Shown here: in pieces, positions 11,757 through 34,875 of the stretch
Layout of the letters: each line of letters starts with the position of its first letter
Numbering within the stretch: the first letter of the stretch is position 1
Source of the DNA: a virus
Direction: 5' to 3' (one strand)
Length of the DNA stretch: 35,259 nt
Virus record (IMG/VR): IMGVR_UViG_3300027704_000068
Coordinates: 1-35,259 of that record
Translations under genes and position numbers: made by a program
Notes under the pieces: model-generated
What the model was told of the DNA's origin: nothing
Database searches by the model: none
What the model saw: only the letters and a program-made list of their open reading frames with translations

Positions 11757-14700
11757 ATGGCACAATCAAATAGAGGTTTTCAGAAGAGTAAGATGAATAA
11801 AGACGCAGATGAGAGAACTGTGGCTAATGGAGAATATAGAGACGCTTTAAATATACAAGTGTCAGCTTCTGATGGTTCTAATGTAGGTTCTGCACAAACT
11901 ATACTAGGTAACACGTTGATATCTGGCAACATGGTGCCTGGAGGTAGTACTGTTGTTGGTAGCATAGCACACAACAAAGAAGACAAAGTTTACTATCTAG
12001 TGGCTGGTCCAAAACCAACAGCAGCAAGCTGGAATCAAAAAGGATCATGGAAGGACTACATAATAGAGTTTGATATAAAAAAAGAAAGTTTTAAATACGT
12101 ATTTGTTGATATATACCAATCTAATGTTGAAAGTAACACTGGTGTAATCAGTAGAGATATACCTGTTAATATAGGAACCCCTAGTTTATTTGACTCTGTT
12201 AGATATGAAATGGTAGTGCAGGGTTTTGATAGTTCTGGTATGCAAATCATAACATCCGACCCTTCAAGTAACGTTGAGGTTATTAGCACATCGGTAACTA
12301 GCTCTACAACTGGTATAGTTAATATATATAGTACTACACAAGATTTTAACAGCATACCAACACCATCAGGTACTTGGTTAAACTGTAAGGCAGAGAGAGT
12401 GTTGAATTTTGATAAAGACCATTTAATAACAGGTATCAACATTATTGATGGAATGTTATTCTGGACAGATAATCACACCGAGCCAAAGAAGATAGATATA
12501 GAGAGAAGTATTAATGGTACGGGTGGTGGTAGCCCATTACCGCCATTATTAAGCTACACGTTCCCTGGGGACTCTGACCAGTTTCACACTAGGCTATGTA
12601 TAACGCCTGATAAAACAAACCCATTAAGAGTAAAACCTAGGAATGAAACAGAGCCTTGGTATATAAAAGAAGCTAACATCACTGTTATAAGAAAAGGCCC
12701 TGTAATACCTCCTTCGTTAGAAATGTCAGAACACGAAGACGGTAGAGCTGGAGCGACTTACTCTGAAACAGATGGTAGTCCAAGTGGTATATCTGGTTGT
12801 CCAAACGTTGGGTGTACTAGTTCTACAACAGCGCAAAATTCTTGGAGTATAAATCCCCCAGCTGGTCCAGATAGAATAAAGAAGGCCGGGGACACCATAG
12901 ACCAAGTATATGTAGTTAATCCTGTTGATTGGAGAATTGGTGACATGATACTTTTTAATCAGCAAGAAGATATAAATAGCGCCGAGGGTTTTATAGACCA
13001 CGACGTTAGAGCAACAGTCACTTCAACTCCGGGTGGAGCATCAACCGGTCCATACTCTTTTGAAATACAATCTATAGATAAAGACGCTATAGATCAAGAG
13101 CAGAAGATGTGGAACATAAGAATGGAGGAGAAAAAACCTATGTTTGAAATGAAGTTTGTTAGGTTTGCTTACAGATATAAATATGAAGACGGAGAATACT
13201 CTACATTCTCACCTTGGTCTCAGCCTGCTTTCATTCCTGGAGAGTATGATTACCTACCTAAAAAAGCTTACAACTTAGGTATGACGAATCGCCTTAGGCA
13301 ATTAAAAATTACTAACTACTTATTAGAAGGTCACTATGGTATATATAACGATGTTATAGAGATTGACTTGTTATACAAAGATGAAGTTGGCCCTCAAGTT
13401 TATGTCGTTGAAACACTTAAAATGACAGATGGTTGGGGTGTTGATGGTAGCCCTGACTTATGGCCTGATAAATGGAAAGATTGGCCGGTAGAGGATACAA
13501 CGTTACGTCGCAAACGTGGAGAGTATAAAGTTACTTCTGAATTAATAAGCAAAGTAGTACCATCAAACCAAATGCTAAGACCCTGGGATAATGTACCTCG
13601 TAAGGCACTAGCTCAAGAGGTAACTAGTAATAGATTGGTCTATGCTAACTACATGCAAAATTTTAACTTAACGAGTCAATATACTGATAACGAAGTAAAG
13701 CCAATAATAAATTTAACTCTAAGCGTTAAAGATGCACCCTTAAATGATCCAGACTTAACGGGTGAAGAAGATTCATTCTCAGTGTTATCACTGGAGGAAC
13801 AAGTGGGAAACCTAGAAGGCTTTGCTAAAGGTGTTAAAACCGTTAGATCACTAAGAACGTATCAGGTTGGAGTTGTATACGGCGATAAGTATGGTAGAGA
13901 AACACCTGTGCTAGCCGGTAAGGATGGTGCTGGTAGTTTAACTATAAACGTAGAAAACTCTAGTACTATAAACAAGTTGAAAGCTTGGGTGATAACTGAT
14001 GTACCAAGCTTCGCAGCATACTACAAGTTCTATGTTAAAGAAACATCTAACAAATACTATAACTTAGCTATGGACCGTTGGTACCTCGCTGAGGATGGTA
14101 ATATATGGATATCTTTTGCTAGCGCGGATAGAAACAAGGTGGATGATGAGACAAATATCATACTTAAAAAAATGCATGATACTCACGAGCCGGTTACGGA
14201 TTTAGCTCGTTACAAAATAATTGCAATAGAAAACTCTGCGCCTAAATTCATAAAAACCAAAGTACATTTATACGGCCAAGTACAACCTAGTGCTACACAA
14301 CTAGGTTCTGCTAGTATTGGTTTTCCCATGGAATTTTACAATGTTCTACACTTACATACAGGCTCAACAAATATGACCGAAGTTGAAGAAGCTTGGGGAA
14401 AAGATAATACTGCTGGTGGTGGTGGTAAAGGTACTATAACAGATAAAATCTCTTCTGGATTTATATACATAAGAGTTAGAACAAAAACAGTTAAATCTAA
14501 CTGGTACCAACTTGCTTCTATGGCAAAAAGTGGTTCGTATTACAAGATGAAACTAGTTAAGACATTCAAGAAAGATGTTGCATTTGCTGGGGGATCTTAC
14601 GCTAATGCGGCTTCAGATTTAAGAGTAGAATTCTCCTCTCAATTCCCAGAGGATAAGCCTGAGTTTGAGGGAAGATATTTTGTAAAAATATATAAAGATT

Positions 14701-17700
14701 TAATACTAATGAAGTGGTTGTTACAGTCTAAGAAAAAGAACTACAGGACTATGGCTGCTCGTCCATTTCATTACTTTAATCAAAGAAAAATTAACCAAAC
14801 CCGTAGCTCTACTGGTGCACAAGCTTCTTGGGAGTCATCAGGTGTAAATGTGGCAGGTGAATTTGATGCTAGTGGTGGTAGCCACCGTAACCCGTGTTTT
14901 AGCACCTCTGGTGTTTCTGTAACAAGCCACGGGGTTGATTCAATTAGTTCGTGCTCTAATCACTCCTCAACACTTAATAATAGAACGTTTTTCTACGGAA
15001 TGAATAGTGGTACTCATACTAGTGGTATGGGTGGCGCGTGGTTTAACACAGGGTCTACCATAAAAAATGTGAGATATTGGGGTCAATCGAGCCGACATAA
15101 GTTTTTTATTGATGGACTTATAACCCGTGGTACTGAATCATCGGGTAATATTTGCTTTCCGTTTGCAACTGGACTTGGTTCTAATGCGGCTTGTGCAAAT
15201 CTTTTTGGAAAACACTTCTTTAATGTTGGTAATAGATCAGATTTAACACATAGGCACGGTACTAGTACTAGTGGTAAAGGACAGAGAAGAGGTAGGGCAA
15301 TAGAGGATGATGGTATGAAAATACACTTTGGGTACATTCACACTGGTGGTTGGGCTTGGAATAGCGCTGAGGATGAATCGTGGTATAACTTCATGACAAC
15401 AAAAGGAACAATGTTTAGGTTTTCTGAAGACAAAGATGAAGTGATGTATGTTGTAACTGGATTTAACACTAGTTTAGATCAAAATGCTACTGGAGAAGGT
15501 AAGCACCATCTTCACTCCTCTTGGTCAAGTGGAAATGGAGGTGGTATTGGGATGGATAATGCTGGTAATAACCTTAGAAGGTTTAGCATAGAGATAGAGC
15601 AGATGGAGTACCCTGGTGTTGGACTACCATCGTATGTAGGTGGTGGAGCTGGATTTAGTGGTTATCACCCTTTAGGCGGTAAAACATCTACAAAAATCCC
15701 TGGAGTAGCTGAGCTAGGGTATTGGGGTGGTAGACCTGGGGCTACTAGTATCAACACTAGCGCTTTAGGTGGGGCGTTTGATGACAATAAAGACCTTCAA
15801 ATCCCAACACCTCCTGACTACCAAAACGAAGTAGTAAAAGTTAATGGTAGTGCTGCGTCAAATTTGAAAAACGATGGCGCTGGTGGATGGGAGGCTGGAA
15901 TAAGTGGGATACAACAGGCACGTAAGTATAGAATGCATCCAGCTAAGTTTCACAATATTGAAATTTTAGAAGAAGTGCCAGACGACGGGGATTGGAGCTC
16001 TAAAAATCCAGCCGTGTGGGAAACCGAACCTAAAGAAGATGTTGGTATGGATATTTACTACGAAGCATCACAAGCTATGCCGGTGAATGTAAATGCCTAC
16101 ACGAATGAACAGTTAGCACCTATAGGTAGCTTGGTAGAAAATGACTCTGGAAGTGACCTCCCAGGTGGACCATGGCAACTACATTCTTGGAGCGACACTA
16201 CGTTCACTATGAGACTTCTTGATGGTAACACACCTCCTTCTTTCACTATACAGTCTGGAGATAGATTTAGGTTTACTAGACCGGATGGGTTTGTAAGTAC
16301 TATTATAGTTAATACACCACCGGGATCAGCACCCTGGCCAGCTACTATCACTATTGCCAACTATAGGCTAAACGTTAGAGGTAACACCACAGCGGCTGTG
16401 CCCTCAACTCCTAACTTCGCTAACTCACCACACAATCAACCCGTAACTTTAAGTTGGCACAACGCTATTGCTTTTGGGAATGGAGTGGAATCAGATAGAA
16501 TTAGAGACGACTTTAACGCGAATACAATATCAAATGGTGTCAAAGCATCTACTGTATTGGCTATACCATACCACGAAGAAAGAAGGAAAGCAGGATTAAT
16601 ACACTCTGGTATATATAATTCTACCAGTGGATTAAATAGTTTAAACCAATTTATAGCTGCGGAAAAGATAACTAAGGATATGAACCCTTCTTATGGTGGG
16701 ATTCAAAAACTACACACTAGAGATAACAACATTGTTGTTATGCACGAAGATAAAATAATGAAAGTTCTTGCGAACAAAGACGCATTGTTTAACGCTGATC
16801 AAAGCAAAAACGTTGTTGTATCTAAAAACTTTTTAGGATCAGACGAGCCGTTCTCTACTAGATACGGTATGTCAACAAACCCAGAGTCGTTCGCTGTTGA
16901 TTTAACAGGTAGAGTTTACTTTACAGATAGGACTAGAGCAGCTGTTTTAAGGCTGTCTAACGATGGTATAACAAACATATCTGATTATGGCATGAAGGAT
17001 TGGTTTAACGACCACCTGAACCCAGAAACAAACACATTACTAGGTTCTTTTGATGAAAAGAAAGGGCTTTACAATTTGACTATTGATGGAGCTAGACAGC
17101 TAGCTGTTGATGAGGTGACAACTATAAACGATGGTGATGGTGGTGATAATGGTGTGGGTTGTGGTTGTGAAAATGGACCTGGAACAAATAGTAGTGGTGG
17201 TGCTGAAATAATAAGCACTGATGGAAACACTCTATACACGCCTGTATCAACAACGGTTAGTTTTAGTGAAAACGCTAAGGGTTGGACATCGTTTAAATCG
17301 TTTATCCCAGAAAATGGAATAAGCATAAACAACGAGTACTACACTTTTCTTGATGGAGAGATGTGGCATCACCACTCTAACTCTAGTAGAAATCAATTTT
17401 ACGGAGATCAATATGACTCTAGTATAGACATTATTTTTAATGACGACCCTAGTGCTGTTAAAAGTTATAGTGGAGTGAATTACGAGGGAACTGAAGCTAG
17501 GATCACTGGTGACCTGTTAGATTCTAACTACTTTAATTTAAACGATAAAACTGGTTGGTATGTTGATACAATGACAACAAACCTACAAACTACAAACAAC
17601 TTAGAGTTTAAAGAAAAAGAAGGGAAGTACTTTACAAGTATAAAGGGTAATACAACCACACTAGCTAATTTAGATGAAAACGAATTCTCGGTTCAAGGAA

Positions 17701-19598
17701 TTGGTAATTTTAGAAACATAAGTGTTTCAGGACCAGCTAATCCCGAACCAGGAGATGAAGGTAGGGTCACTTGTCTAACCGTAACACCTATAATTAACTG
17801 TGACGAGGTACTTGGTTGTACGGATCCTTACGCAGATAATTACGATGCAAGTGCAACTACTGATGATGGATCTTGTGAATATCCAGTAGCGTGTATCACT
17901 AGTCATACCGACGACCCATCAAATCCTTATCCTGGTCATGACGGTACTCTTAATCGACCTGAAAACAGCCATCACTGGCATACATGGGTGCAAGGTGGAG
18001 AGACAGGAGGGTTCATACTAACGCCACTAGCAACAACAAGCTCATTTTCTACATGTACAACTTATTTAGAGTTTCATTTTGAGCATCCAGGAAGCAATGG
18101 TGGTGGACATAATTATGCTAGCACTATGGATAACGATGGAACAAATAGTAATATTGCAACGCTTACGCCTGGTGTGGGAATACCTCTTAATCTAACAAAC
18201 ACTAATTCTATAAGTTCGTCTGGAATGCCTACTATCTATGTGGATGAATTTGTTTTTGGATCTGATTGTGATGGAACATTTTACTTTGAGCTTTCAAATA
18301 TACACAACAATTGTACCTCGACATTCAGCATAACTACACAAGAACCTCTAGCTAATGACCCGGTATCCCAAGGCGATCTTTGCCAGTATGTTGGTGGTTG
18401 GACTATGGATCCTTTAACTAGTGACATTTGGAACTATGATTATGATTTTAGCCCGATGCAAGTTTCTACAATGAGCAATCAAATACCCGCAAGTATTAAC
18501 GACCACACTATTTTTACTGATATCGCACAAAACGGACAGGTTAGTAGTGAGGGTGGTTACGGAGTAATGAACTCACTACCATTCCACTCTAACTCAGCTC
18601 CAACAGCTCTAAGACCTAGATTTGGCTCGCAGCAAGGGTTAGCTAGTTGGTTACCTGAATACGAGATGCTTTATATATCAGACCCAGCTAATGGCTTGCA
18701 AAGCAATGATTTCCGAACAAAACAGTGGCCATACTTCTATCAAGGCGCTGGTAATGGTTGGCGTAGACCGGTAGCTATACAAACAAACCCAGGCGCTATG
18801 AATCCTGGTTCGTATTTAGCTGATGCTTATCAATCAATAATTGGAACCGGTGCAAATGGTAGTTGGAGATCAATATGCGCAGCGGGTCAGTACGCTGGTG
18901 GGACAAATACACTCTCAGGTAATATTATAAACGGTTGGAATCAGGATTGTGACCACGCTTTGTGTGGTACGCTAGCAGGTTACTATGGAAACTATGACTT
19001 TTCTGACGAAATGGGTTATGGTACTAATCAATGGTCAACCACTCCGGGGACAAATACAGGTCAAGGTCCTCAAAACATAACTGGAAATTGGGGCGCACAG
19101 CCATATCAAACCACCGGTCAAGGTTGTGATACAAATGGACAATGGTCAGGGTTTCTACTAACATTATACAGTTACGAGGAGGTTATCCATTACGTTAGAC
19201 TACTAGCTCTTCACTGTGCAGATAATGAACCTGAGTTTGGAACTGGAAGTAATCACACAGCAACACGGAAGGGAGTTGTAATGGAATTTTTGAAAAACGC
19301 AACACTCTCCACGCCTTGGTACGGACCAGCATATATTGATCCCAACGGACATCCAATTACAGCATCTCCAGATCCAGCATACTCGGTAAACACCGCGTAC
19401 GGTATAGAGGGATCGCTAAGATTTTGTTTCGATGACGCTAAATGCGGAATAATTTCTGACTGCTTTTTACAAACTGTATTTGTTAACTGTGCTGCTGGAG
19501 ATGGTATTGGGAACAATGTCGGTGCTTCTGGGCCTTATGTAGCACCTTCTTACTTTGAAACCCACGTTGCTCCTTCACTCTGTAAAACAAATTTATAA
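11757..19598 (+). CDS. Giant tail protein, muzzle/nozzle-like, with distal domains
   Basis: 2613 residues. The N-terminus (GFQKSKMNKDADERTVANGE, then YRDALNIQV) and the block ITGINIIDGMLFWTDNHTEP near residue 230 look like the start of the large nozzle/stabilisation protein of Bacteroidota podoviruses, a counterpart of T7 gp12. A Gly/Ser/His-rich region spans about 1000-1280. A propeller-like region follows (about 1700-1760, ESFAVDLTGRVYFTDRTRAA), then SFSENAKGWTSFKSFIPENG at about 1835. A Cys-containing LGCTDPYADNYDASATTDDG motif lies at 2019-2038, ending with SCEY. The remaining 570 residues have Trp, Gly, Asn and Cys richness typical of surface-exposed adhesion domains. It probably forms the tail below the rings, with the C-terminal part facing the host. 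No lytic or depolymerase motif is recognised. Confidence 0.75.
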   Translation: MAQSNRGFQKSKMNKDADERTVANGEYRDALNIQVSASDGSNVGSAQTILGNTLISGNMVPGGSTVVGSIAHNKEDKVYYLVAGPKPTAASWNQKGSWKDYIIEFDIKKESFKYVFVDIYQSNVESNTGVISRDIPVNIGTPSLFDSVRYEMVVQGFDSSGMQIITSDPSSNVEVISTSVTSSTTGIVNIYSTTQDFNSIPTPSGTWLNCKAERVLNFDKDHLITGINIIDGMLFWTDNHTEPKKIDIERSINGTGGGSPLPPLLSYTFPGDSDQFHTRLCITPDKTNPLRVKPRNETEPWYIKEANITVIRKGPVIPPSLEMSEHEDGRAGATYSETDGSPSGISGCPNVGCTSSTTAQNSWSINPPAGPDRIKKAGDTIDQVYVVNPVDWRIGDMILFNQQEDINSAEGFIDHDVRATVTSTPGGASTGPYSFEIQSIDKDAIDQEQKMWNIRMEEKKPMFEMKFVRFAYRYKYEDGEYSTFSPWSQPAFIPGEYDYLPKKAYNLGMTNRLRQLKITNYLLEGHYGIYNDVIEIDLLYKDEVGPQVYVVETLKMTDGWGVDGSPDLWPDKWKDWPVEDTTLRRKRGEYKVTSELISKVVPSNQMLRPWDNVPRKALAQEVTSNRLVYANYMQNFNLTSQYTDNEVKPIINLTLSVKDAPLNDPDLTGEEDSFSVLSLEEQVGNLEGFAKGVKTVRSLRTYQVGVVYGDKYGRETPVLAGKDGAGSLTINVENSSTINKLKAWVITDVPSFAAYYKFYVKETSNKYYNLAMDRWYLAEDGNIWISFASADRNKVDDETNIILKKMHDTHEPVTDLARYKIIAIENSAPKFIKTKVHLYGQVQPSATQLGSASIGFPMEFYNVLHLHTGSTNMTEVEEAWGKDNTAGGGGKGTITDKISSGFIYIRVRTKTVKSNWYQLASMAKSGSYYKMKLVKTFKKDVAFAGGSYANAASDLRVEFSSQFPEDKPEFEGRYFVKIYKDLILMKWLLQSKKKNYRTMAARPFHYFNQRKINQTRSSTGAQASWESSGVNVAGEFDASGGSHRNPCFSTSGVSVTSHGVDSISSCSNHSSTLNNRTFFYGMNSGTHTSGMGGAWFNTGSTIKNVRYWGQSSRHKFFIDGLITRGTESSGNICFPFATGLGSNAACANLFGKHFFNVGNRSDLTHRHGTSTSGKGQRRGRAIEDDGMKIHFGYIHTGGWAWNSAEDESWYNFMTTKGTMFRFSEDKDEVMYVVTGFNTSLDQNATGEGKHHLHSSWSSGNGGGIGMDNAGNNLRRFSIEIEQMEYPGVGLPSYVGGGAGFSGYHPLGGKTSTKIPGVAELGYWGGRPGATSINTSALGGAFDDNKDLQIPTPPDYQNEVVKVNGSAASNLKNDGAGGWEAGISGIQQARKYRMHPAKFHNIEILEEVPDDGDWSSKNPAVWETEPKEDVGMDIYYEASQAMPVNVNAYTNEQLAPIGSLVENDSGSDLPGGPWQLHSWSDTTFTMRLLDGNTPPSFTIQSGDRFRFTRPDGFVSTIIVNTPPGSAPWPATITIANYRLNVRGNTTAAVPSTPNFANSPHNQPVTLSWHNAIAFGNGVESDRIRDDFNANTISNGVKASTVLAIPYHEERRKAGLIHSGIYNSTSGLNSLNQFIAAEKITKDMNPSYGGIQKLHTRDNNIVVMHEDKIMKVLANKDALFNADQSKNVVVSKNFLGSDEPFSTRYGMSTNPESFAVDLTGRVYFTDRTRAAVLRLSNDGITNISDYGMKDWFNDHLNPETNTLLGSFDEKKGLYNLTIDGARQLAVDEVTTINDGDGGDNGVGCGCENGPGTNSSGGAEIISTDGNTLYTPVSTTVSFSENAKGWTSFKSFIPENGISINNEYYTFLDGEMWHHHSNSSRNQFYGDQYDSSIDIIFNDDPSAVKSYSGVNYEGTEARITGDLLDSNYFNLNDKTGWYVDTMTTNLQTTNNLEFKEKEGKYFTSIKGNTTTLANLDENEFSVQGIGNFRNISVSGPANPEPGDEGRVTCLTVTPIINCDEVLGCTDPYADNYDASATTDDGSCEYPVACITSHTDDPSNPYPGHDGTLNRPENSHHWHTWVQGGETGGFILTPLATTSSFSTCTTYLEFHFEHPGSNGGGHNYASTMDNDGTNSNIATLTPGVGIPLNLTNTNSISSSGMPTIYVDEFVFGSDCDGTFYFELSNIHNNCTSTFSITTQEPLANDPVSQGDLCQYVGGWTMDPLTSDIWNYDYDFSPMQVSTMSNQIPASINDHTIFTDIAQNGQVSSEGGYGVMNSLPFHSNSAPTALRPRFGSQQGLASWLPEYEMLYISDPANGLQSNDFRTKQWPYFYQGAGNGWRRPVAIQTNPGAMNPGSYLADAYQSIIGTGANGSWRSICAAGQYAGGTNTLSGNIINGWNQDCDHALCGTLAGYYGNYDFSDEMGYGTNQWSTTPGTNTGQGPQNITGNWGAQPYQTTGQGCDTNGQWSGFLLTLYSYEEVIHYVRLLALHCADNEPEFGTGSNHTATRKGVVMEFLKNATLSTPWYGPAYIDPNGHPITASPDPAYSVNTAYGIEGSLRFCFDDAKCGIISDCFLQTVFVNCAAGDGIGNNVGASGPYVAPSYFETHVAPSLCKTNL

Positions 19599-23545: not shown

Positions 23546-25051
23546 ATGGCGGGAGATAACGCAGGAGGTACAACTAGTGAGTTCATGAAAATGGGCAAGA
23601 TGATGGGTCAATCAAACAATCCTAGCAACAGTGGGATGTATGATGGCTTGGATAAAGTTACCGAGAAATTAATGGCTAATAAGCTAGCTAGACAAGCGGA
23701 GGTAAAAGGCGAGAGAGAGTCTCTTAGGAAAGAAAGAAAGTTAGCTGGGCAAAAACTTACAAATGAATTCACAGAAATGGGTCCTACTCTAAAGGTATTG
23801 GGCCCAGAATCTTTTGGACAAGCACAGACTGAGATAGAAGGTTTAAGACAGCAGATGTTTGAAGCTATTGATGCTGGTGATCAAAAAAAGATAGCAGAAC
23901 TAAACATGAAGCTTAACGATATAAAAACGAGGCACTCTGGGGATGCTGAAAACCTAACTACACTAATAGATTCCTGGGAGTCAGATACCGTGAGTACAGA
24001 CGCTATGACTAAGGAGAATATAGATGTTCTAACTAATTTCGCTGCAAACAAAACCAAGAAAGAAGTTTATGTGGAAAATGAAGATGGTGTTCCAGAGCTT
24101 AGGTATGAGTGGGATACTGAGGAGCCTTTATTAGACGAAACTACTGGCGAGCAACAAATAGACGAAGAAGGTAATCCAATGTTTGTAAAGGATCAAAAAT
24201 CCCTAGCTGAAATGCAAGACATGCTAGTAACCAAGGATACTGTCAACGGTAACAAAATGCTAGATCTAGGTCAAGAGCTAAAGGTTGGTTATAAAGATAA
24301 ATCACCAATGAGTGATGCTGACATAAAGCATAAGGTAGGAGAGATAATACCTCAAGATCCTAAAGCTATAAGAGATTGGTTACATGGTAACCCAGCTGAA
24401 TTTCCAGGTCTAAACGTTCACGACTACTTAAGCGATCTAATGAACACAGATTATGGTACATTTGATAAATTAGGTATTGATTTAACAAAACCGGAGTATG
24501 CACATTTAGATAAAGACAAAGAAGGTGATGATGGTTATGGTACGGTTGAAGCTGACGAGGTTCCAGAGGCGTTTAGAGAAGAACTAATAAACAATGTACT
24601 AGACGTAAAGGATCTAGAAGTATCGCATGGTATTATTACCGAGATATATTCTAGTCTTATGAAAAATAATATGATGGGTATTAGTAATGAAGATCAACGT
24701 GATCCTAGCGAAACAACTATACTAGGCAACAAAGAGAGCTCTAGCGCTAAAGCTAGTAACGATGCTAATGAAACTCTTGAAAAATTAAAAAGTCTAGGTG
24801 ATCCAGATTCGCCTATACATGCTGAAATAGCTAGAATGAATGAAGCACAAATAGCTACACACATACTTGGTTCTGGAGCAAAATGGACTGACGAGGTATA
24901 TGATCCAGTAACTAAAGAAAAAATTACATTAGCTAAATACATTGCTGATGCTAAAAACAAAAAATCAAAACCCAACGAGCAGAACCCCAAGGATCCAATG
25001 GCGGGTATGACAGCTGCACAAAAAATTCAATACATAAAAGATAATAAATAA
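23546..25051 (+). CDS. Putative second ejection (gp15-like) protein
   Basis: 501 residues, acidic and mostly helical, without transmembrane segments or cysteines. Early segments include GLDKVTEKLMANKLARQAEV and a coiled-coil-like QTEIEGLRQQMFEAIDAGD. A beta-hairpin-like acidic insert lies at about 170-215, and a Lys-rich tail at the end (ADAKNKKSKPNEQNPKDPMA). It sits between the gp14-like and the giant protein and overlaps the latter by one base (TAATG at 25049-25053). This order equals T7 gp14-gp15-gp16, so it may form the periplasmic or internal-core part of the ejection machine. No sequence similarity to gp15 is visible; the assignment is from order and size only. Confidence 0.6.
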   Translation: MAGDNAGGTTSEFMKMGKMMGQSNNPSNSGMYDGLDKVTEKLMANKLARQAEVKGERESLRKERKLAGQKLTNEFTEMGPTLKVLGPESFGQAQTEIEGLRQQMFEAIDAGDQKKIAELNMKLNDIKTRHSGDAENLTTLIDSWESDTVSTDAMTKENIDVLTNFAANKTKKEVYVENEDGVPELRYEWDTEEPLLDETTGEQQIDEEGNPMFVKDQKSLAEMQDMLVTKDTVNGNKMLDLGQELKVGYKDKSPMSDADIKHKVGEIIPQDPKAIRDWLHGNPAEFPGLNVHDYLSDLMNTDYGTFDKLGIDLTKPEYAHLDKDKEGDDGYGTVEADEVPEAFREELINNVLDVKDLEVSHGIITEIYSSLMKNNMMGISNEDQRDPSETTILGNKESSSAKASNDANETLEKLKSLGDPDSPIHAEIARMNEAQIATHILGSGAKWTDEVYDPVTKEKITLAKYIADAKNKKSKPNEQNPKDPMAGMTAAQKIQYIKDNK

Positions 25052-28000
25052 TGCCTGAAACACCAGAAGAAACTCTTAAAGCTCCTTCGATGGAGGAGAT
25101 AGAAGCGTCTAAAGCTAGAGGTGAGCAAACTGCTTTTAACAGGGGTCCAGATGGAGAACTGTTAGAAGAGGGTTATACAATGAACGATGCTGGAGAGGTT
25201 GTTTATGTTGGCGAAGGAGATGAGCCAGCTGCAACTACCACTGCGAATACTAATGAGTTAGAAGAAATAGTTCAATTCATGATGGACTCCGGACAGTCTG
25301 ACAAGAGTATTAGAGAGGTTGTAAAAGCTTATAAAGAAGATTTCCCTGCGGATGAAGAAGTAAAGGAAGAAACACCACCGGCGGATGTCCCTGTGGAAGA
25401 AGACGTTACGGCATCCAACTCGGAAAACTATTCTTCGGATGGGAAGTTAAAAGCAGATAGTGAGGGTAATACAGTTGACGAATCATATAAAGGTAAGAAG
25501 GTTGAGGTAGACGATTTAGATGCTAGTGGATTGGTTGAACTTGACGAAGAAGATTTAGAGGCTTATTTTAAAAGAAACATACCTTTAGCATCTACTAACC
25601 AAAGTGGTACTCCTATGGCTGGTAATGCTGTTAGAGTAAAACTTCCAGGTATGGAGGAAGTTGAAATAGATAACAAAGCTTTTTCATTAAACCCATTTGG
25701 ACCATCAAATGATGAGTTAAAGAAAATAGAGGCTGAGAAAATGCAAGCTTTAATAGATCATAATAAAAAGCTAGAAGGTATGCCATACTTAAATGCTTTT
25801 AAAACAGGTATTCGCGGTTGGGGTGGTAAAGGGGGTGTTGATTTATCTCAGAAAAAAATAGAACCAAAGCAGTTTAGTTGGATTCAACAAAATTACAAGG
25901 ACATCATGGGTATTGATATTAGTGAGACTGAAAGTTCTAGTCAAGGGATTATCACTCATGGTTATAAGGTTCGTGATGGAGATGGTAACATGTTGTTTCA
26001 GGGTTCAGCAACAGAGTTGCAAGACTACATGTATAACAATCCACCTAACAAAGAGCAAACCAAACTACTAGCACAAAAAACAAAAGAAGGTAGAGAGAAT
26101 AACTTTGGAGATAAAACCGTTAAAGAAGATATAGCTGCTCAAACAAACGAAGCTGTTGCCAGTGAGTTTATGCAAGCAAAAAGTGGTTATAGTACGTTAG
26201 TAGCGAATAATATGGGCATTGGTGCTGATGATATGTTTAATTCTGGAGAAAGAGAGTCCAAAAAAGTGAGTTCTATTTCAAGCGCCCTAGCAATGTATAT
26301 GAGGCAAGGCGGGGCAAAGGATACTAAAAGCCCTACTGAGTTTGCTGAGAAATTTATAGAGTGGGGTAGTGGGCTGGACGCTGCTTTTATGTTAGAGGAG
26401 ACTTTTGCTATGATTGGTGAAAACAAAGAAGGTCTTATAAACTCACTAACATTGCTGAAAGCTGATGATGGCAAGCTAATAAAGGATGGAGTTGCTGGGT
26501 TAAGAGTTAAAAATATTGCTAATATAAAAGAAGAGAACTTAAAGAATGGTGGTTTTCAGAATTTAATAGTAGCTAACGACATACACACAAAGGAGGAGTT
26601 GGTATCACAGCACGCTTTAACAAAAGCTGATATTAAAAAGTTTAAACCTACTATAGAAAAAGATACAGCTAAATTTAAAAAACAATACCAAGACATATAT
26701 GATCAAGCTAGTGTAGATGGAATAACTAGCATAGATCAAAGTAAGGCCACTGGATTATTCACGGTTAAAGGGAATAACGAGGAGGTTGCAAAACAGTATC
26801 AAGCAGAGTTAAATGCCTTGAACAATACAGTTAGTCAAAAGCAAGCCTACTATAATTCACAAGGCACTGTTTTAAATGAGCAGTACAATTCTCAAATCAA
26901 GCAATTAGGATTAGCTGATGTAGAGCTAGGTAAATCAACAAAAAACTTCTCGTTGATGGATGCAGTTCAAGATGATATTGAATCTAGTTTTAGTGGTTTG
27001 GTTTATCAACCAGCAGCGTTATTTGGTAGCACAGCTGCTATGGATAAAATAACCACTAGTCAAGAGGTAAACGCTGAGTTGTATCCGGAGATGGACTTTT
27101 CGAAAGGCGGTTGGAATTACACAGCTAGAACATGGGCTCAACAATCAGGTGTGTTAGCTTTAGCTATCGCAACACAAGGAGCTGGTACAGCGTTAGGGTT
27201 AACAGAGGCAGCTATAGCTACAACTACAGCTACAATGTTTGGTGTTGGCGCTGCGGGTGGTAAAAGAGCGGAGCTAGAAGCTCAGTTGCAAAACGTCGAC
27301 ATGACACATCAAGCTATTCTTGAGTTAGAATCCATGAAGGAAACAATGGATCCAGAACAGTACAAGAAAGCAAGGCTAGCACTAGTTAAAGCTAGAGATG
27401 ATAGTAACATGAGTAATACTCAAAAGTGGGGTTTAATAGTTTCCACGGGTATAATAGAAGGTACTGTTACTAGGTTTTTAGGTACAATACCTAATCTTAG
27501 TAAAACATGGAAAGCTGTAACAAGTCCTTTAGATGACGTGGCTGGATTAATTGCTAGAAAGAATTTACAAGCAACTGGTAGTGCTTTATTTCAAATAGGT
27601 AAAAGTGTTGGAGGTGAGATATTGGAGGAAGAGTTAATACATTTTGGTACCGCTGGTGCAGAAGCAGCTTGGTTAGGCAATGAAGTTGATTTTAGTGGTT
27701 GGCAAGATGTAGCTTTATCAGCTATTATGGTGTCTGGACCTATGAATGGTCCTGGTATGGCTTACTCGACATATGCTCAGCAAGTTGCCACTAAGGGCAT
27801 GCGTGAAAACCACTATCGTATCACAAGTGAACTAGGTGATTTACGCGCTGAGTTACTAGATCTTGATATAAATAGTGAGACATATGCCGAAGATGAAGGA
27901 AGATTGCGAGATAAAAGACAAAGTTTACTTGGAGAATTAACTAGCATGAATAGTGAGATGGAACTCCAGGTTATGGGGTTAGGAGCCGAGAACATGGCTA

Positions 28001-31000
28001 GCATGGTTACTAATGGAAGACGTATTAGTGATTTAGGCAGGGAAGCTGGGGTTGACCCATCTTTAGACACAGATACACAAACAGAACAAGTTAAAGCTTA
28101 TGCTGAGACATTAGAGCCTGATGCTAAAGAAGCTTTTATGAAAAAATGGAATTCTGCTATTAATGGTAAGAATGATTCATTTAACAAGAAAGCTGAGTGG
28201 AAGGATACTATAGAAAAAGTTTATGGTGATAAAGGTAAATCTATTTACGATGCTTTAGTGAAAGAAAATCCTGAGCTAAAAGATGCTACAGAAAAAGAGA
28301 AAGCTATAGCTGTACATGAGGAATTTAAAAAACAAAGAGTTGATGTAGCTATAGGTAAGGCTAAATCAAATCCAAATATAGTTGCACAAGTAGAGAACTT
28401 CATCTATGGTATGCCTTGGAAAGAAGCAGAGGGTAGAGGGTTCGAAAGACGACAAGGTGCGGAAAACAATGCTTACCAGAAGATAGGAGAGAGTGTACAA
28501 ACTGATATAAGAACTGGTGTTAAGCTTATAAAAGAACAATCAAAACAAGCAGCAGGAGTGCTTGGAAACAAAAGATTAAGCGAACTAAAGGTTACAGAGG
28601 CTAAAACAGATCAAGAGCTAATAAAAGAGACGAATAGAGCTTATGATGCAATGTATGAAATACAAGCCGCTAGAATTGATGCTGGTATAGATGAGGATGT
28701 TAAAGGTATGTCTGATGCTGATAAAGAATCAGCTAAACAAGTTTATAGAGCTGACTTTGCTCACGAGGCAGAACAATCAATTGCTGAGATTAAATCAGGC
28801 GCTACTAACGGTGTTATAGTTGGTGGTGAGTATATAGTTAGAGATATAAAAGCTGGTAACACAGCTGTTCGTGAAGGGTATTTACTTGCTGGTACTGTTA
28901 TGTCACATGAGATTTCTCACGCTGTAGATAATTTAGCTTTCGACAAAGCAGGTTTATTAAACTACGGGGAAAACCTATTTGATTACATGGCTGAAAACCA
29001 CCCGGAGATACATGCTAATGTACTACAAGGTCAAGAGCAGATAAATAATTATAGTAGGCAGGGAGATGCTTTCCCTAATGGTAAGCAGTTATTTTTTGAT
29101 GAGTACACTAAGATGGCTCAAGATATAATACAACGCCCAGAGAGTAAAAAAGCTTATGACAAAATACAAAAGCTTAATCAAAGCATGCCTAATGCCTTAA
29201 GAGCTATGACTAGGGGTGATTATGCTATCAACACACCTAGAGACGCAGCTGTTTATCTAGGTAGTTTTGTTGATGGCTTTAAGAATGATAAACTAGGTAG
29301 GTTACAAGAAAGAAAAATAGATGCTAAAGGCACTAAGGGACAAGTTGACATTAAAACTAAAAAGTCAGCAAACGTATCGCCAGTGTTACACTCCCAAGCT
29401 AACGCGGTGGGTAAAGAGGCTAACGATTTTTATGCTAACAGAGCTAACAATCCTGAGTACTCTTACGATATAGCTAAGTTGTTTGAACCTATGCTTGGAA
29501 AGTACTTAAATCGTATTGAAGCCGAAGGAGCTATACTGGGTAAGCAAGATGAGTATGGTCAAGTGAGTGGCGATGAGAGAGCTCAAAACATTGCTGACTA
29601 CAAGATGAATGGTATGTACGCTAAAAGGGGTATTGTTGATCTTGTTGAAAACGGGTTTAACCCAGAGGAAATGATTGAAGTTATAGATCCTGCCACTGGA
29701 GAGACAGTTCTTGAACCCAACACTATATCTAAATACTTAAACGGTGTATTCCCGCAAAGGTTATCTGAGTTTACAAAAAATACTACAGTAGATTTTGGTG
29801 GGTTTAAAGTGGATATAACCAAAGCCGCTAACATTGTTACCACAGAGACAGATCAAGCTATAAACGATATACTTACAACTAGCGTTCAAGATCAACTGAA
29901 CACACCTTTGCTGTCTGGTATAACTCTTAGCGCAGAACAGATAATAACGTTAAGAGAAGCCGTGTCAAGTATTGTTGGTAGAAAGCTACCAGCTATAGAT
30001 GCTATTGTTTCAAAAAATAAATCCGTAACACCATTAATAGCTGCTTTAAAAAAAGAGCTAGCAATCAAAGGTAGTGACCTGCACAACTTAGTATACGAGA
30101 TTATTGGTCAAAGTAAAGCGGAAGTAGAACAATTCTTAACAGACCCTAAGAATAAGAAAATGATGTTAGATGCTCTAACAACAACTTGGTTGGCTAAAAA
30201 CATACCCATGGCTGTTCAGAAAGAAGTTAACGGTATTGGATACACGACTGATTTCAAAGGTAGAACAAAAGGAACTAAACCTGGTCAAATTAATTTTTGG
30301 AGATCATCTGAAGATGGTCCCTACAAAGGTATGACTGATGGTAAGCAAAAGATTAGAAGAAACCCTAACGCTATAAAGGATGTTTCTAATGCCATGTTGT
30401 TAAGCATGTTTAACAAAGGTGTTACTATGACTGATGTTAAAAGAGCTGGTTTAGAAAAACTATCTTTAGCAATAACTCAAGAGTTTGGCTTAGAAGCTTT
30501 TAAAGCTGACATGATAAACGAAGGGCCACTGAAAGAATTATTTGTTGGTAGACAGGACTTGTTTGACAGGACATTGGCGGGTAATTTTGTAGAAGAGTTT
30601 GTTAGACAAACCGAGAGAGGTGTTACTAAGCGCTCTGAAAATTATCAAAAAAATTACGATTTAGGTAATCCAGAAGATGCTCTTACAGAAGAGCGAGTTG
30701 GAGTAGCTGCTTACGCTTTGATTAAGGATGTAATACAAAACTACGATAAAAATAAAAGATACGGTGGTCTAGAAGCTAAGCTAGAAGGATACCCTAGTTA
30801 TATGGTGGAGGCTTTTACTGAGGCGGGAATATTTGAAATGTTTGACACTGAGCGCAAGGCTAAGTTTGTTGGCCCAACAAAAGCTATGAGTTGGTTTGGT
30901 TTTGGTAAGGCTAAAGAAACATACCTTGAGAATGGTACTCAAAGTAAAACCATGAAAGACCTTCAAGCGCGTAACTCTAGCGAATTGATTAAACAACTAC

Positions 31001-34000
31001 CACCACAATTAGTTAGAAAGCTAGGTCCAGAGTTTTTTGGTTTAGGAAGTGAAAGAGGACTTGATGGATCTTTTAAAAAAAGAAAAGGTGGGAAGGGCGA
31101 GTATAATTGGTTACGTATAGAGTTTGATGAGGCTTCAAAACCCGAGCTTGATTGGAAAGATAATGATCCTAGACTAGTAGATGATAAAGGAAAAAGTACT
31201 TTGCCTTTTGATATTAGTAAAGTTGAAATGTTAAATTCCAGTAGTGGTTTAATGTCTTCTATAGAAACTATACAAGACATGGCTGTTCCAAAGAGTAAGA
31301 AAATAGAGTTAATGGGAAGGTTAAAATCTAGGATTGATGGAGCAAACACAAATAATAAAAAATTCTTAACATGGGTTTTAGCTGAGAACGCTAAGCTTGT
31401 GGCTAACAATCCTGAGTTCGCAGCTGGGTTAGCTAGTTTAATGCAAGGCGCTACAAATAACGTTAAGGGTTTCAGAGGTTACACCGGTCTTGGTATGATC
31501 AAAATTATGGATGGTTCACAAGCACCTTATTTAACCAAGGATGGTAAACCAACTAGAGTGAACACTGGGATTGTAAACACAGGGCATCCAGATTATAAGA
31601 GAGCTCTAGAGTTTACCAAAGGAGACGCTGAGCTAGCGGGTGAGTTAATTATATATAAAGGCGAACACATAGACCCAAGCGCTAACGTTAACCAGAGATT
31701 GTTTAGCCTTACTTTAGAGCTAGCTGATATGCTTAGTACTAATCCAAAGGCTGTACATAAACAGATACTAAGTGAGTATCAATCTAAAATGGGTCAAGAA
31801 GTTCAAAACTTTGATCAATCTTTAGGTACTAAGTTGGATTCTGATATGCAAGACGCTGCTCTTACTTCAACTAATGAATCAGCCTATGCTAGAAATCTAG
31901 TTATAGAAGATCAATTGAAACACTATGTTAACACTGAAAACTTTGGAGTTGTTGAGGATGTAGTAAAAAACAAAACCATTGGCATGTTACAACTTGTTGG
32001 TATATCTGAAAGGTTGAAAGCTAAAAGACTTCAGAATGCAGAGACTGAATCTAGGAAGTCTAAAAACCCTAATGGCATTACAGTATTAGATTTTGATGAC
32101 ACGTTGGCTACGAGCAACTCTGAGGTTCTCTCTACATCTCCAGAGGGTGTTGTTAGAAAGTTGACCGCAGAACAGTTTGCAAATGAAGGTGCCGATCTAC
32201 TAAGCCAAGGCTGGACTCATGATTTTTCAGAATTCAACAAGGTTGTTGATGGGAAGATAGCATCGTTATTTCAAAAAGCATTAAAATTACAAGGTAAGTT
32301 TGGTAATAACAATATGTTTGTGCTAACCGCTAGACCACAAGAGTCTGCTCAGTCTATATATGAGTTCTTAAAAGCTAATGGTTTAAATATACCATTAAAA
32401 AATATTACTGGCTTAGCTAACTCAACCGCTGAAGCTAAAGCTCTTTGGATAGCAGATAAAGTTGCTGAGGGTTATAACGATTTCTACTTTGCTGATGACG
32501 CAATGCAAAACGTGGATGCTGTTAGGGAAATGCTAGAAAGGTATGACGTTAAATCTAAGGTTCAGCAAGCTAAAAGATCAGCTAACCCTAGTTTAGAGTT
32601 TAACAATATAATACAAGAGAGTACTGGTGTGGAGTCTTTGAAACAGTTCTCTGAAGCTCAAGCTAAAGTAAGAGGTGCTAAAACAAAGTATAAGTCTATT
32701 ATACCTGCTTCTGCTCAAGATTTCTCTGGATTACTATATAGTTTTATTGGTAAAGGTAAAAAAGGAGAGGCTGATATGGCATTCTTCAAGAAAACATTAA
32801 TAGATCCTTTCGCTAGAGGTATAGATCAACTAAATGCCTCAAGACAAGGCGCTGCTAATGACTATGCAAACCTAAATAAGACGTTCCCTGAAACTAAGAA
32901 AATAATAAACGACAAAATCCCTGGAAGTGAGTTCACTGTTGACCAAGCTGTTAGGGTGTATCTTTGGAATAAAGCGGGTTTTGAAATACCAGGTTTATCA
33001 AATAGAGACCTTAACATGCTTGCTAGTGTTGTTGAGGGCGACAGTGAATTACAAGCCTACGCAGATGGGGTTGGGCTGATATCCAAGCAGGAGGATGGTT
33101 ACTCTAGGCCTGGAGAATATTGGTTGGCTGAAAACATAACATCCGACTTACTTAGTGATGGTGCTATTGGGGATGCTAGAGCTGACGTAATGGCTGAGTG
33201 GCAGCAAAATGTAGACCAAGTGTTTTCAAAAGAAAACCTTAATAAGATAGAAGCTATATACGGTAGTAAGTTTAGAGAAGCTCTTCAAGACATTTTGTAT
33301 AGAATGAAGACTGGTAGAAATAGACCAGCAGGTGGAGGTAGAATGGTTAACCAGTACATGAACTGGGTCAACAACTCTGTTGGTGCTATTATGTTCTTGA
33401 ACATGAGATCGGCAACATTGCAAACTATATCTATGACTAATTATGTAAATTGGTCCGATAACAATCCGTTGAAAACAGCTCAGGCATTTGCTAATCAACC
33501 ACAGTTTTGGAGCGACTTCTCTATGATATGGAATTCTGACTACTTAAAGCAAAGGAGATCTGGTAACCAAAGAGGTATTAATGAGGCTGAATTGTCAGCT
33601 GCGGTCGCTGGTGCCGAGAACAAAGCTAAAGCGGCTTTAAACTATTTACTTAAAAAAGGTTTTACCCCAACACAGTTAGCGGATAGCTTTGCGATATCAA
33701 TGGGTGGTGCTCCGTTTTTTAGAAACAGAACCAACAAGTATGTCAAAGAAGGTATGAGCCAAAAAGACGCGGAGGCAAGAGCATTTTTAGATTTCCAAGA
33801 AACAACAGAGGTTTCTCAGCAATCAGCTAGACCTGATATGATATCTCAACAACAAGCATCTCCACTTGGTAGGTTGATATTATCATTTCAAAATACTCCA
33901 ATGCAGTATGCTAGGATAATGAACAAAGCCACTAGAGATCTAGTTAATGGTAGAGGTGATACTAAAACCCACATTTCTAAAATAGCTTACTACGGGTTTA

Positions 34001-34875
34001 TTCAGAGTGTAATATTTGGGTCGTTGCAATCAGCGCTTTATGCTTCGCTAGGAGATGATGATGAGGAAGTTTTTGACAAGAAGAAAGAAAGAATAATAAA
34101 CCAAATGATAGACTCATGGTTAACTGGTATCGGATATGGGGGTAAAGCTATTAGTACTGTTAAAAACTCTATAAAAGAATATTTAAAACAAAGGGATAAA
34201 GGCTTTAGAGCGGATCACGCTTATACCATATTGTCTCTTCTTAGTTTCTCGCCACCTATAGGTTCTAAACTACGTAAAATATATTCATCAATAAAAACAG
34301 AGGAGTTTAATAGGGGTGTGTTTTCAAAACGAGGTTTATCTTTAGATAATCCAATTTGGTCAGGTATTGGTAATGTTGTAGAGGGTTTTACAAATGCTCC
34401 GCTTGGTAGGATATCTAATCTAATGTTGCAATTAGATAACGCTATGGACTCTAACCACAAATGGTGGCAGCGTGTAGCTTTGATACTAGGGCAGAACACT
34501 TGGGATCTTGGGATTAAAGATCCAGACATAGAAGCTGCTAAAAACGAAGTGAAGGAAGAAAAAGCTGTTATCAGTAAAGAAAAGCAAAAAAAGAAAAAAG
34601 AAGAAAAAAAGAAAGAAAAACAAAAAGAAAACGCAGTCGTAATAGAGGAAAACAAAAAGAGAAGCAAGAAAGATGGCGTTTGTTCTGCGGTAAGTAAAGG
34701 AGGTAGTAGGTGTAAAACAAAGGTGGTTGAAGGTAAGTTGTTTTGTACAGTGCACGAGAAAACCGAGCAAAGGTCAGATGGTAAAAAAACACAATGCCGA
34801 AAAAGAAAATCAGACGACACTAGGTGTAAGATGAAAACCACAAACAAGAGTGGTTATTGCTACTACCACGATTAA
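25051..34875 (+). CDS. Giant polyvalent ejection protein (zincin + HAD + zinc modules)
   Basis: 3274 residues. Acidic N-terminus (1-175). Hydrophobic segments at about 697-738 (GVLALAIATQGAGTALGL...), 793-815 and 887-906. A zincin motif H1286-E1287-x-x-H1290 (MSHEISHAVDN) has a candidate third ligand, E1351 (FFDEYTKM). A HAD phosphatase domain spans about 2340-2500: D2347-F-D2349-D-T, T2426 (LTARP), K2463/K2470 and D2482-D2483 (FADDAMQN). A helical region resembling 'large polyvalent protein' C-terminal domains runs from about 2540 to 3165, with hydrophobic stretches at 2774-2801 and 2981-3002. Then come a Lys/Glu linker (about 3168-3205) and two Cys/His modules (3211-3273). Probably packaged in the head and injected with DNA. 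It lacks a recognisable lytic transglycosylase and RNA polymerase motifs. Confidence 0.8.
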   Translation: MPETPEETLKAPSMEEIEASKARGEQTAFNRGPDGELLEEGYTMNDAGEVVYVGEGDEPAATTTANTNELEEIVQFMMDSGQSDKSIREVVKAYKEDFPADEEVKEETPPADVPVEEDVTASNSENYSSDGKLKADSEGNTVDESYKGKKVEVDDLDASGLVELDEEDLEAYFKRNIPLASTNQSGTPMAGNAVRVKLPGMEEVEIDNKAFSLNPFGPSNDELKKIEAEKMQALIDHNKKLEGMPYLNAFKTGIRGWGGKGGVDLSQKKIEPKQFSWIQQNYKDIMGIDISETESSSQGIITHGYKVRDGDGNMLFQGSATELQDYMYNNPPNKEQTKLLAQKTKEGRENNFGDKTVKEDIAAQTNEAVASEFMQAKSGYSTLVANNMGIGADDMFNSGERESKKVSSISSALAMYMRQGGAKDTKSPTEFAEKFIEWGSGLDAAFMLEETFAMIGENKEGLINSLTLLKADDGKLIKDGVAGLRVKNIANIKEENLKNGGFQNLIVANDIHTKEELVSQHALTKADIKKFKPTIEKDTAKFKKQYQDIYDQASVDGITSIDQSKATGLFTVKGNNEEVAKQYQAELNALNNTVSQKQAYYNSQGTVLNEQYNSQIKQLGLADVELGKSTKNFSLMDAVQDDIESSFSGLVYQPAALFGSTAAMDKITTSQEVNAELYPEMDFSKGGWNYTARTWAQQSGVLALAIATQGAGTALGLTEAAIATTTATMFGVGAAGGKRAELEAQLQNVDMTHQAILELESMKETMDPEQYKKARLALVKARDDSNMSNTQKWGLIVSTGIIEGTVTRFLGTIPNLSKTWKAVTSPLDDVAGLIARKNLQATGSALFQIGKSVGGEILEEELIHFGTAGAEAAWLGNEVDFSGWQDVALSAIMVSGPMNGPGMAYSTYAQQVATKGMRENHYRITSELGDLRAELLDLDINSETYAEDEGRLRDKRQSLLGELTSMNSEMELQVMGLGAENMASMVTNGRRISDLGREAGVDPSLDTDTQTEQVKAYAETLEPDAKEAFMKKWNSAINGKNDSFNKKAEWKDTIEKVYGDKGKSIYDALVKENPELKDATEKEKAIAVHEEFKKQRVDVAIGKAKSNPNIVAQVENFIYGMPWKEAEGRGFERRQGAENNAYQKIGESVQTDIRTGVKLIKEQSKQAAGVLGNKRLSELKVTEAKTDQELIKETNRAYDAMYEIQAARIDAGIDEDVKGMSDADKESAKQVYRADFAHEAEQSIAEIKSGATNGVIVGGEYIVRDIKAGNTAVREGYLLAGTVMSHEISHAVDNLAFDKAGLLNYGENLFDYMAENHPEIHANVLQGQEQINNYSRQGDAFPNGKQLFFDEYTKMAQDIIQRPESKKAYDKIQKLNQSMPNALRAMTRGDYAINTPRDAAVYLGSFVDGFKNDKLGRLQERKIDAKGTKGQVDIKTKKSANVSPVLHSQANAVGKEANDFYANRANNPEYSYDIAKLFEPMLGKYLNRIEAEGAILGKQDEYGQVSGDERAQNIADYKMNGMYAKRGIVDLVENGFNPEEMIEVIDPATGETVLEPNTISKYLNGVFPQRLSEFTKNTTVDFGGFKVDITKAANIVTTETDQAINDILTTSVQDQLNTPLLSGITLSAEQIITLREAVSSIVGRKLPAIDAIVSKNKSVTPLIAALKKELAIKGSDLHNLVYEIIGQSKAEVEQFLTDPKNKKMMLDALTTTWLAKNIPMAVQKEVNGIGYTTDFKGRTKGTKPGQINFWRSSEDGPYKGMTDGKQKIRRNPNAIKDVSNAMLLSMFNKGVTMTDVKRAGLEKLSLAITQEFGLEAFKADMINEGPLKELFVGRQDLFDRTLAGNFVEEFVRQTERGVTKRSENYQKNYDLGNPEDALTEERVGVAAYALIKDVIQNYDKNKRYGGLEAKLEGYPSYMVEAFTEAGIFEMFDTERKAKFVGPTKAMSWFGFGKAKETYLENGTQSKTMKDLQARNSSELIKQLPPQLVRKLGPEFFGLGSERGLDGSFKKRKGGKGEYNWLRIEFDEASKPELDWKDNDPRLVDDKGKSTLPFDISKVEMLNSSSGLMSSIETIQDMAVPKSKKIELMGRLKSRIDGANTNNKKFLTWVLAENAKLVANNPEFAAGLASLMQGATNNVKGFRGYTGLGMIKIMDGSQAPYLTKDGKPTRVNTGIVNTGHPDYKRALEFTKGDAELAGELIIYKGEHIDPSANVNQRLFSLTLELADMLSTNPKAVHKQILSEYQSKMGQEVQNFDQSLGTKLDSDMQDAALTSTNESAYARNLVIEDQLKHYVNTENFGVVEDVVKNKTIGMLQLVGISERLKAKRLQNAETESRKSKNPNGITVLDFDDTLATSNSEVLSTSPEGVVRKLTAEQFANEGADLLSQGWTHDFSEFNKVVDGKIASLFQKALKLQGKFGNNNMFVLTARPQESAQSIYEFLKANGLNIPLKNITGLANSTAEAKALWIADKVAEGYNDFYFADDAMQNVDAVREMLERYDVKSKVQQAKRSANPSLEFNNIIQESTGVESLKQFSEAQAKVRGAKTKYKSIIPASAQDFSGLLYSFIGKGKKGEADMAFFKKTLIDPFARGIDQLNASRQGAANDYANLNKTFPETKKIINDKIPGSEFTVDQAVRVYLWNKAGFEIPGLSNRDLNMLASVVEGDSELQAYADGVGLISKQEDGYSRPGEYWLAENITSDLLSDGAIGDARADVMAEWQQNVDQVFSKENLNKIEAIYGSKFREALQDILYRMKTGRNRPAGGGRMVNQYMNWVNNSVGAIMFLNMRSATLQTISMTNYVNWSDNNPLKTAQAFANQPQFWSDFSMIWNSDYLKQRRSGNQRGINEAELSAAVAGAENKAKAALNYLLKKGFTPTQLADSFAISMGGAPFFRNRTNKYVKEGMSQKDAEARAFLDFQETTEVSQQSARPDMISQQQASPLGRLILSFQNTPMQYARIMNKATRDLVNGRGDTKTHISKIAYYGFIQSVIFGSLQSALYASLGDDDEEVFDKKKERIINQMIDSWLTGIGYGGKAISTVKNSIKEYLKQRDKGFRADHAYTILSLLSFSPPIGSKLRKIYSSIKTEEFNRGVFSKRGLSLDNPIWSGIGNVVEGFTNAPLGRISNLMLQLDNAMDSNHKWWQRVALILGQNTWDLGIKDPDIEAAKNEVKEEKAVISKEKQKKKKEEKKKEKQKENAVVIEENKKRSKKDGVCSAVSKGGSRCKTKVVEGKLFCTVHEKTEQRSDGKKTQCRKRKSDDTRCKMKTTNKSGYCYYHD
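34681..34872 (+). repeat. Tandem C-x9-C-x10-C-x2-H zinc-binding modules
   Basis: The last 64 residues of the giant protein hold two modules with identical spacing: C3211, C3221, C3232, H3235 and C3249, C3259, C3270, H3273. Both have the pattern C...[GD].RCK.K......[FY]C..H. This is like short zinc-binding domains of the DUF5763 type (recalled, not searched). They follow a lysine-rich linker and may bind nucleic acid. Confidence 0.75.

Follow-up and report, generated by a model that had tools for sequence, protein, structure and literature searches.

What kind of protein does a marine phage encode in a single gene of 3274 codons at the end of its virion-protein block, and what might that protein do when infection starts? 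The gene lies in a virus record of 35,259 bases, all of which was analyzed and is here called the window, where it is the last gene of a terminase-portal-muzzle module. The size and anonymity of injected phage proteins make them difficult to work on. In the family to which this giant belongs, a fixed part stands out clearly from an exchangeable one, marine members are numerous, and the modules are definite enough to be tested.

Genomic setting

The source phage is marine and is related to flavobacterial phages. Its genes run in the order GroES, terminase, portal, an unknown, a structural protein in the capsid position, a second unknown, two structural proteins in ring positions, the muzzle, tail genes, then an S74-chaperone-like protein supported by a weak Pfam match, a protein of 501 aa, and the giant. 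The main features are:

1504 to 3720, + strand: terminase large subunit (phrog_6681, 1.6e-166; relatives infect Flavobacteriia)
3722 to 6142, + strand: portal protein (phrog_6547, 6.8e-145)
7361 to 8857, + strand: virion structural protein, probably the major capsid protein by position (phrog_13704; synteny)
11757 to 19598, + strand: muzzle protein, 2613 aa, with a crAss_MUZ_C domain (Pfam 2.8e-9; phrog_14478, 2.9e-113)
23546 to 25051, + strand: 501-aa protein immediately upstream of the giant, in the position of the MS/MS-detected phi18:3 gp121 (499 aa); the correspondence proposed is one of position
25051 to 34875, + strand: giant polyvalent-type gene, 3274 aa (ORF; relatives in IMG/VR)

The terminase matches 87 phage records, comprising Cellulophaga, Flavobacterium, Tenacibaculum, and Maribacter phages and one spring-water podovirus. 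In all five of the terminase-matched genomes that were compared, terminase, portal, rings, and muzzle follow one another in this sequence, and the block ends with a protein of ~450-650 aa followed by a giant of 1691-3859 aa, a gene order that is found in Pervagoviridae, Pachyviridae, Elemovirus, Panino, and MW202828. Because the 499-aa protein and the giant gp123 in the phi18:3 record were both seen by MS/MS and occupy syntenic positions, the slot of the giant encodes virion proteins. In elemoF the giant in this slot, gp18, is annotated as structural and carries a zincin homologous to that of the window family. Synteny with the phi18:3 giant and zincin homology to elemoF suggest that giants with the constant domain described below would also be present in virions.

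Of the features of Crassvirales, the muzzle with the crAss C-terminal domain is present, and the TerL matches come from flavophages placed in other taxa (Pervagoviridae, Pachyviridae, Elemovirus). The muzzle of the window is 2613 aa long versus roughly 950-1610 aa for the matching genes of relatives, which suggests large insertions within 11757-19598.

That the constant region is homologous to the giants of phi38:1, phi18:3, Panino, elemoF, and MW202828 was considered and rejected, there being no HMM match, and the constant domain was found in none of the cultured phages compared. The HAD and helical parts searched separately, including against the full MW202828 giant, gave no match, nor did the sigma-like profile against the giants of the isolates. 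The MW202828 giant (L087 741-12320; 3859 aa) contains two HEFGH motifs and lacks the HAD DxDxT motif, and the Panino giant (L085 26280-31769) is annotated as a ‘tRNA methyltransferase’ and lies beside clustered tRNA genes and a tmRNA.

A constant C-terminal part and an exchanged N-terminal part

The reading frame at 25051-34875 (+) is open throughout its 3274 aa and takes up 27.9% of the window, in agreement with the first-pass annotation, which had described one gene covering 28%; a chance ORF is ruled out by this length. A tblastn scan of IMG/VR with the C-terminal third yielded 550 stretches that passed, and the best 80 of the 550 loci were kept as relatives, the complete ones being about 2100-4360 aa long. 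The ~830 C-terminal residues are constant in 80/80 relatives, window residues ~2350-3150 aligning in nearly all of them, whereas most of the N-terminal 2300 residues align in at most 17 of 80. The three loci closest to the window in the constant region (78-79% identity; one truncated) share only 0-4 N-terminal residues with it, while other relatives at 50-56% identity share 1050-1780; L017 and L052, which are 51-56% identical in the constant part, have ~1770 residues of the N-terminus in common with the window. Because N-terminal sharing does not track constant-region identity, the N-terminus has been exchanged relative to the C-terminus, and the family thus displays the domain swapping between relatives by which polyvalent proteins are recognized. 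This constant/variable split is new here and was absent from the earlier annotation. The parts of the giant are:

25051 to 28587, + strand: variable N-terminal region, residues 1-1179 (common to few relatives; no convincing membrane segment)
28588 to 29130, + strand: zincin metallopeptidase domain, residues 1180-1360 (motif conservation; strand/helix order in model)
28906 to 28920, + strand: HEISH motif, residues 1286-1290 (HExxH)
29101 to 29103, + strand: third ligand Glu1351 (99% conserved)
29401 to 29979, + strand: sigma-70 region-2-like module, residues 1451-1643, core about 1471-1565 (fold, profile, and profile-profile searches)
32062 to 32583, + strand: HAD phosphatase domain, residues 2338-2511 (nearest fold: T4 Pnkp 3'-phosphatase)
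32653 to 34545, + strand: constant all-helical C-terminal region, residues 2535-3165 (80/80 relatives; model; BFVD polyvalent matches)
34546 to 34872, + strand: basic C-terminal tail with two DUF5763-like Cys/His modules (profile match; charge count)

The zincin domain

HExxH is found in 77/81 family sequences, and three of the four exceptions are truncated ORFs. Across the alignment of the 77 zincin-bearing sequences the two His and the Glu of the motif never vary, and the downstream Glu is kept in 76/77; in the window these are HEISH and Glu1351. The zincin motif set that had been noticed from the sequence is borne out. Structure prediction for this part, proposed earlier as a check, gave a divided answer: the AlphaFold model around the motif shows the expected succession of strands, HExxH helix, and Glu helix, but no solved zincin was matched convincingly when the zincin-region model was searched against the PDB. 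The BFVD fold search with the zincin/sigma model returned nothing at E ≤ 0.001, and neither the zincin region of one sequence nor the A3 alignment retrieved anything in related-loci searches. An Asp lies three residues past HExxH in the window and in 18/77 aligned sequences, and the excerpts of Iyer et al. (2017, PMC5512222) used here count this type among those that are widespread in the zincins of phage polyvalent proteins. In a search of a small set of phage proteins the family zincin profile matches the elemoF giant (5.2e-10), and the family is therefore tied to a cultured phage.

A sigma-70 region-2-like module

The module at residues ~1451-1643 had been missed by the earlier reader. Among PDB fold matches for the model of residues 1051-1850 a sigma factor comes first and three more sigma factors fall on the same stretch; the best of these matches has a Z of 5.6 with an rmsd of 21.7, on a part of the model of low confidence (pLDDT about 50). 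The match to 8i23 spans model positions 402-783 (rmsd 21.7), and the region 4 helix-turn-helix is absent from the profile alignments. When a 37-member profile of the module was compared with PDB sequences, sigma factors ranked first and third (E 0.066 and 0.6), with alignments that fall on region 2, and with a second, partly different profile FliA ranked second (E 0.33). Pfam Sigma70_r2 was detected at E 0.007 in the giant encoded by the L012 record; in 65 records it otherwise occurred only in the phages' own sigma genes, and it was not called in the window protein.

Against a comparison profile of four E. coli and five phage-type sigma factors, hhalign gave P 3.3e-5 (A7) and 5e-4 (A5), with scores of 35.8 and 31.2 versus shuffled maxima of 16.6 and 15.6, the shuffled maxima spanning 13-17 in all, and hhalign probabilities of 19-72%. 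Shuffled columns make a lenient null where profiles are helical, and the sliding-window and control-segment tests are the better controls. Specifically, the sigma-2 profile slid along the modeled regions peaks at the module only (28.2, versus ≤17.4 in non-overlapping windows), and a module scoring >10 bits sits directly downstream of the zincin in 68/77 zincin-bearing proteins, versus 0/353 control segments. A bacterial-only sigma profile scored 27.3 versus a shuffled maximum of 14.8, and a phage-only profile from the phages' own stand-alone sigma gene gave nothing above shuffles. The region 2 sequence pattern can be seen in L061, NYDPKKGKFSTHVYNNI, although phmmer with this segment, the most sigma-like by eye, matched no sigma factor. 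A sigma region 4 was not found. The single lines of evidence are weak but fall on the same site, and the resemblance probably reflects real homology to sigma region 2, though this is unproven.

The phages' stand-alone sigma factor gene (~250 aa) occurs on longer contigs of the family, with nine in 65 records (L088-L091, L093-L097). Relatives of it lie on three contigs (L102-L104) of an Aliivibrio MAG, which are probably misbinned phage contigs.

The HAD phosphatase and the cap-inserted kinase

The HAD motif residues T2426, R2428, K2463, D2482, and D2483 are identical in 50/50 aligned rows, and D2347 and D2349 in 47-48/50, the exceptions being misaligned by insertions there. The constant-region AlphaFold model (mean pLDDT 80.5) begins with the HAD fold, and the domain combines the Rossmannoid fold with the DxD, T/S, K, and DD motifs that characterize the superfamily. 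The earlier assignment as a HAD phosphatase therefore holds, both in the complete motif set and in model matches to HAD structures. The top six PDB fold matches are all Pnkp (Z 12.1-13.1), other HAD families scoring 11.5 and below, and phrog_415 ‘polynucleotide kinase’ matches 18/50 members (best 1.3e-8). Because the HAD profile matched no PDB sequence at E up to 1, the link to Pnkp rests on fold and PHROGs. The domain is predicted from its model to be a DNA/RNA-end phosphatase, nearest in fold to the T4 Pnkp 3'-phosphatase.

A zeta-toxin/AAA_33-type P-loop kinase (Zeta_toxin 2.3e-13 at best) lies inside the HAD domain of three relatives (L005, L035, L057), inserted right after the DFDDT motif, between motif I and the cap; this is compatible with a kinase-phosphatase reading. 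At the same cap position L027 has a different insertion of ~100 residues (residues ~2330-2430).

The helical region and the basic tail

Residues 2535-3165 are almost entirely helical in the AlphaFold model, and a BFVD search with the constant-region model gave phage proteins that carry a polyvalent annotation, at a TM of about 0.3-0.55, the closer matches being unnamed virus proteins. The last 114 residues contain 36 K+R versus 19 D+E, and the tail alone matches DUF5763 at E 1.3e-4, with 21.8 bits, below the cut-off of 26.3; the tail of one relative (L002) exceeds this cut-off with 27.6 bits, and elsewhere in the family the end has a single module or is rich in Lys/Arg. The zinc modules and nucleic-acid-binding-like tail of the first-pass annotation are thus recovered as a basic, zinc-finger-like tail with two DUF5763-like stretches. 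Its membrane-like segments are not: the best 19-residue Kyte-Doolittle mean in the window protein is 1.35 (residue 700), below the threshold of 1.6 that was used. Of the features of a T7 gp16-like ejection protein, a peptidoglycan-cutting domain and a membrane conduit, the window giant gave no Pfam/PHROG match to the former and had no strong hydrophobic segment. LPD, ART, and ArdC Pfam domains were searched for and not found.

A proposed mechanism and its alternatives

As computed, the architecture consists of a fixed C-terminal part, with the Pnkp-like HAD, the long helical region, and usually a basic or Cys/His tail, and an exchangeable N-terminal part that almost always has the zincin followed by the sigma-70 region-2-like module. 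On balance we favor, as somewhat probable, the reading that the giant is a virion-borne polyvalent protein with a delivered sigma-like module. We propose that the giant would be packaged near the portal, held there by the constant helical region and the basic tail, and that the chain would exit by way of the muzzle, together with the DNA or before it. The zincin may then cut its own chain, in the head or in the cell, and so free the modules. The sigma-like module would bind the clamp of the host RNA polymerase and bias it toward early phage promoters or away from host promoters, and the phosphatase, with the kinase in some relatives, may trim nucleic-acid ends damaged at entry or by host nucleases. 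Packaging, ejection, self-processing, clamp binding, and end repair are each steps that we infer around a computed domain content, order, conservation, exchange, and synteny. The earlier proposal of a polyvalent effector, predicted to be delivered with the genome, is largely upheld by the architecture, zincin subtype, fold matches, and end-of-block position of the giant; its membrane segments are not.

A neighboring reading keeps an ejected polyvalent protein and takes the post-zincin module as a mere helical bundle resembling sigma region 2, so that the zincin and the phosphatase do the work. It draws on sigma scores that are individually weak, on the low model confidence there, on the lack of region 4, and on a phage-only profile without signal; nevertheless, different methods converge on one site and one fold, the specificity and control-segment tests are clean, and the region 2 pattern recurs in L061, even if phmmer gave no sigma, and we consider this reading unlikely, though a real contender. 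That the giant is instead a structural ejection protein like T7 gp16, forming a conduit in which the enzyme domains are incidental and the zincin serves only virion maturation, appears quite improbable to us given the lack of convincing membrane segments in the window protein, the full conservation of the catalytic residues, and a swapping of N-termini that fits effectors better than a conduit, although the placement after the tail genes, the long helical C-terminal region, and the view that crAss-like cargo proteins form a channel (PMC10172136, excerpts) would suit it. Highly improbable, in our judgment, is a late-expressed intracellular protein that is never packaged: the virion link of the family does rest on synteny and homology, but the synteny is with a phi18:3 virion protein detected by MS/MS and the zincin homology is to an elemoF protein annotated as structural.

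Returning to a virion-borne polyvalent protein with a sigma-like module, the giant may help to take over the host transcription machinery as infection starts. Other phages approach transcription at entry by bringing a polymerase (N4, crAss-like) or by modifying the host enzyme (T4 Alt), and a virion-carried sigma-like domain, if true, would be a third way and a cheaper alternative to the RNA polymerase cargo of crAss-like phages. In the open-licence literature nothing relevant was found on a virion-borne sigma factor. A kinase within the HAD cap, if true, would be an uncommon arrangement among enzymes that repair nucleic-acid ends. It is possible, though we hold it with more doubt than belief, that a widespread marine phage lineage injects a sigma-like domain in a self-processing virion protein and redirects the host RNA polymerase before phage gene expression, from the slot where crAss-like phages keep their virion RNA polymerase proteins.

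Comparison with known systems

The giant shares its genomic slot with phi18:3 gp123, which was detected by MS/MS, and with elemoF gp18, which has the homologous zincin, but these two have no detectable HAD, constant, or sigma-like region. Its HAD resembles T4 Pnkp in phosphatase fold (Z 13.1), and three relatives add a P-loop kinase; the identity is 13-15%, however, and the kinase is absent in the window and sits in the HAD cap in the relatives, whereas in T4 Pnkp it is N-terminal.

In PhicrAss001 a multi-MDa protein cargo is proposed to leave by the tail ahead of the DNA, the muzzle acting as gatekeeper, and the cargo of crAss-like phages includes RNA polymerase proteins (PMC10172136, in the excerpts used here). 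The window phage has a homologous muzzle domain, and its giant is like the cargo proteins gp45-gp50 of that muzzle-bearing podovirus in being large and probably carried in the virion; gp45-gp50 differ in being channel-candidate and RNA polymerase-associated proteins for which the same excerpts of PMC10172136 describe no zincin or HAD. The N4 virion RNA polymerase is a very large virion protein with a zincin domain that acts on transcription at entry (PMC5512222, excerpts), and its DEV relative has 3,398 aa (PMC10925440). The giant is similar in size and in its zincin and differs in that no polymerase was found and a sigma-like module is present instead.

The giant groups with the proteins called polyvalent in phages and conjugative elements, for which several unrelated domains per chain, a zincin hub, swapped architectures, and injection with the DNA have been proposed or described (Iyer et al., 2017, PMC5512222, excerpts). 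These proteins were thus already described in 2017, and the first-pass suggestion of an undescribed kind of system falls. The giant lacks the LPD, ART, and ArdC domains but is alike in its multiple unrelated domains (zincin, HAD, and the probable sigma-2-like module), in its Asp zincin subtype, and in the fold of its helical C-terminus. What is new is the combination of a sigma-like module with a Pnkp-like HAD that has an optional kinase insertion, a composition that was not located in the excerpts of PMC5512222, nor was any mention there of a sigma or a phosphatase domain. The sigma-like module, together with the cap-inserted kinase of the relatives, sets this family apart as a variant among polyvalent proteins.
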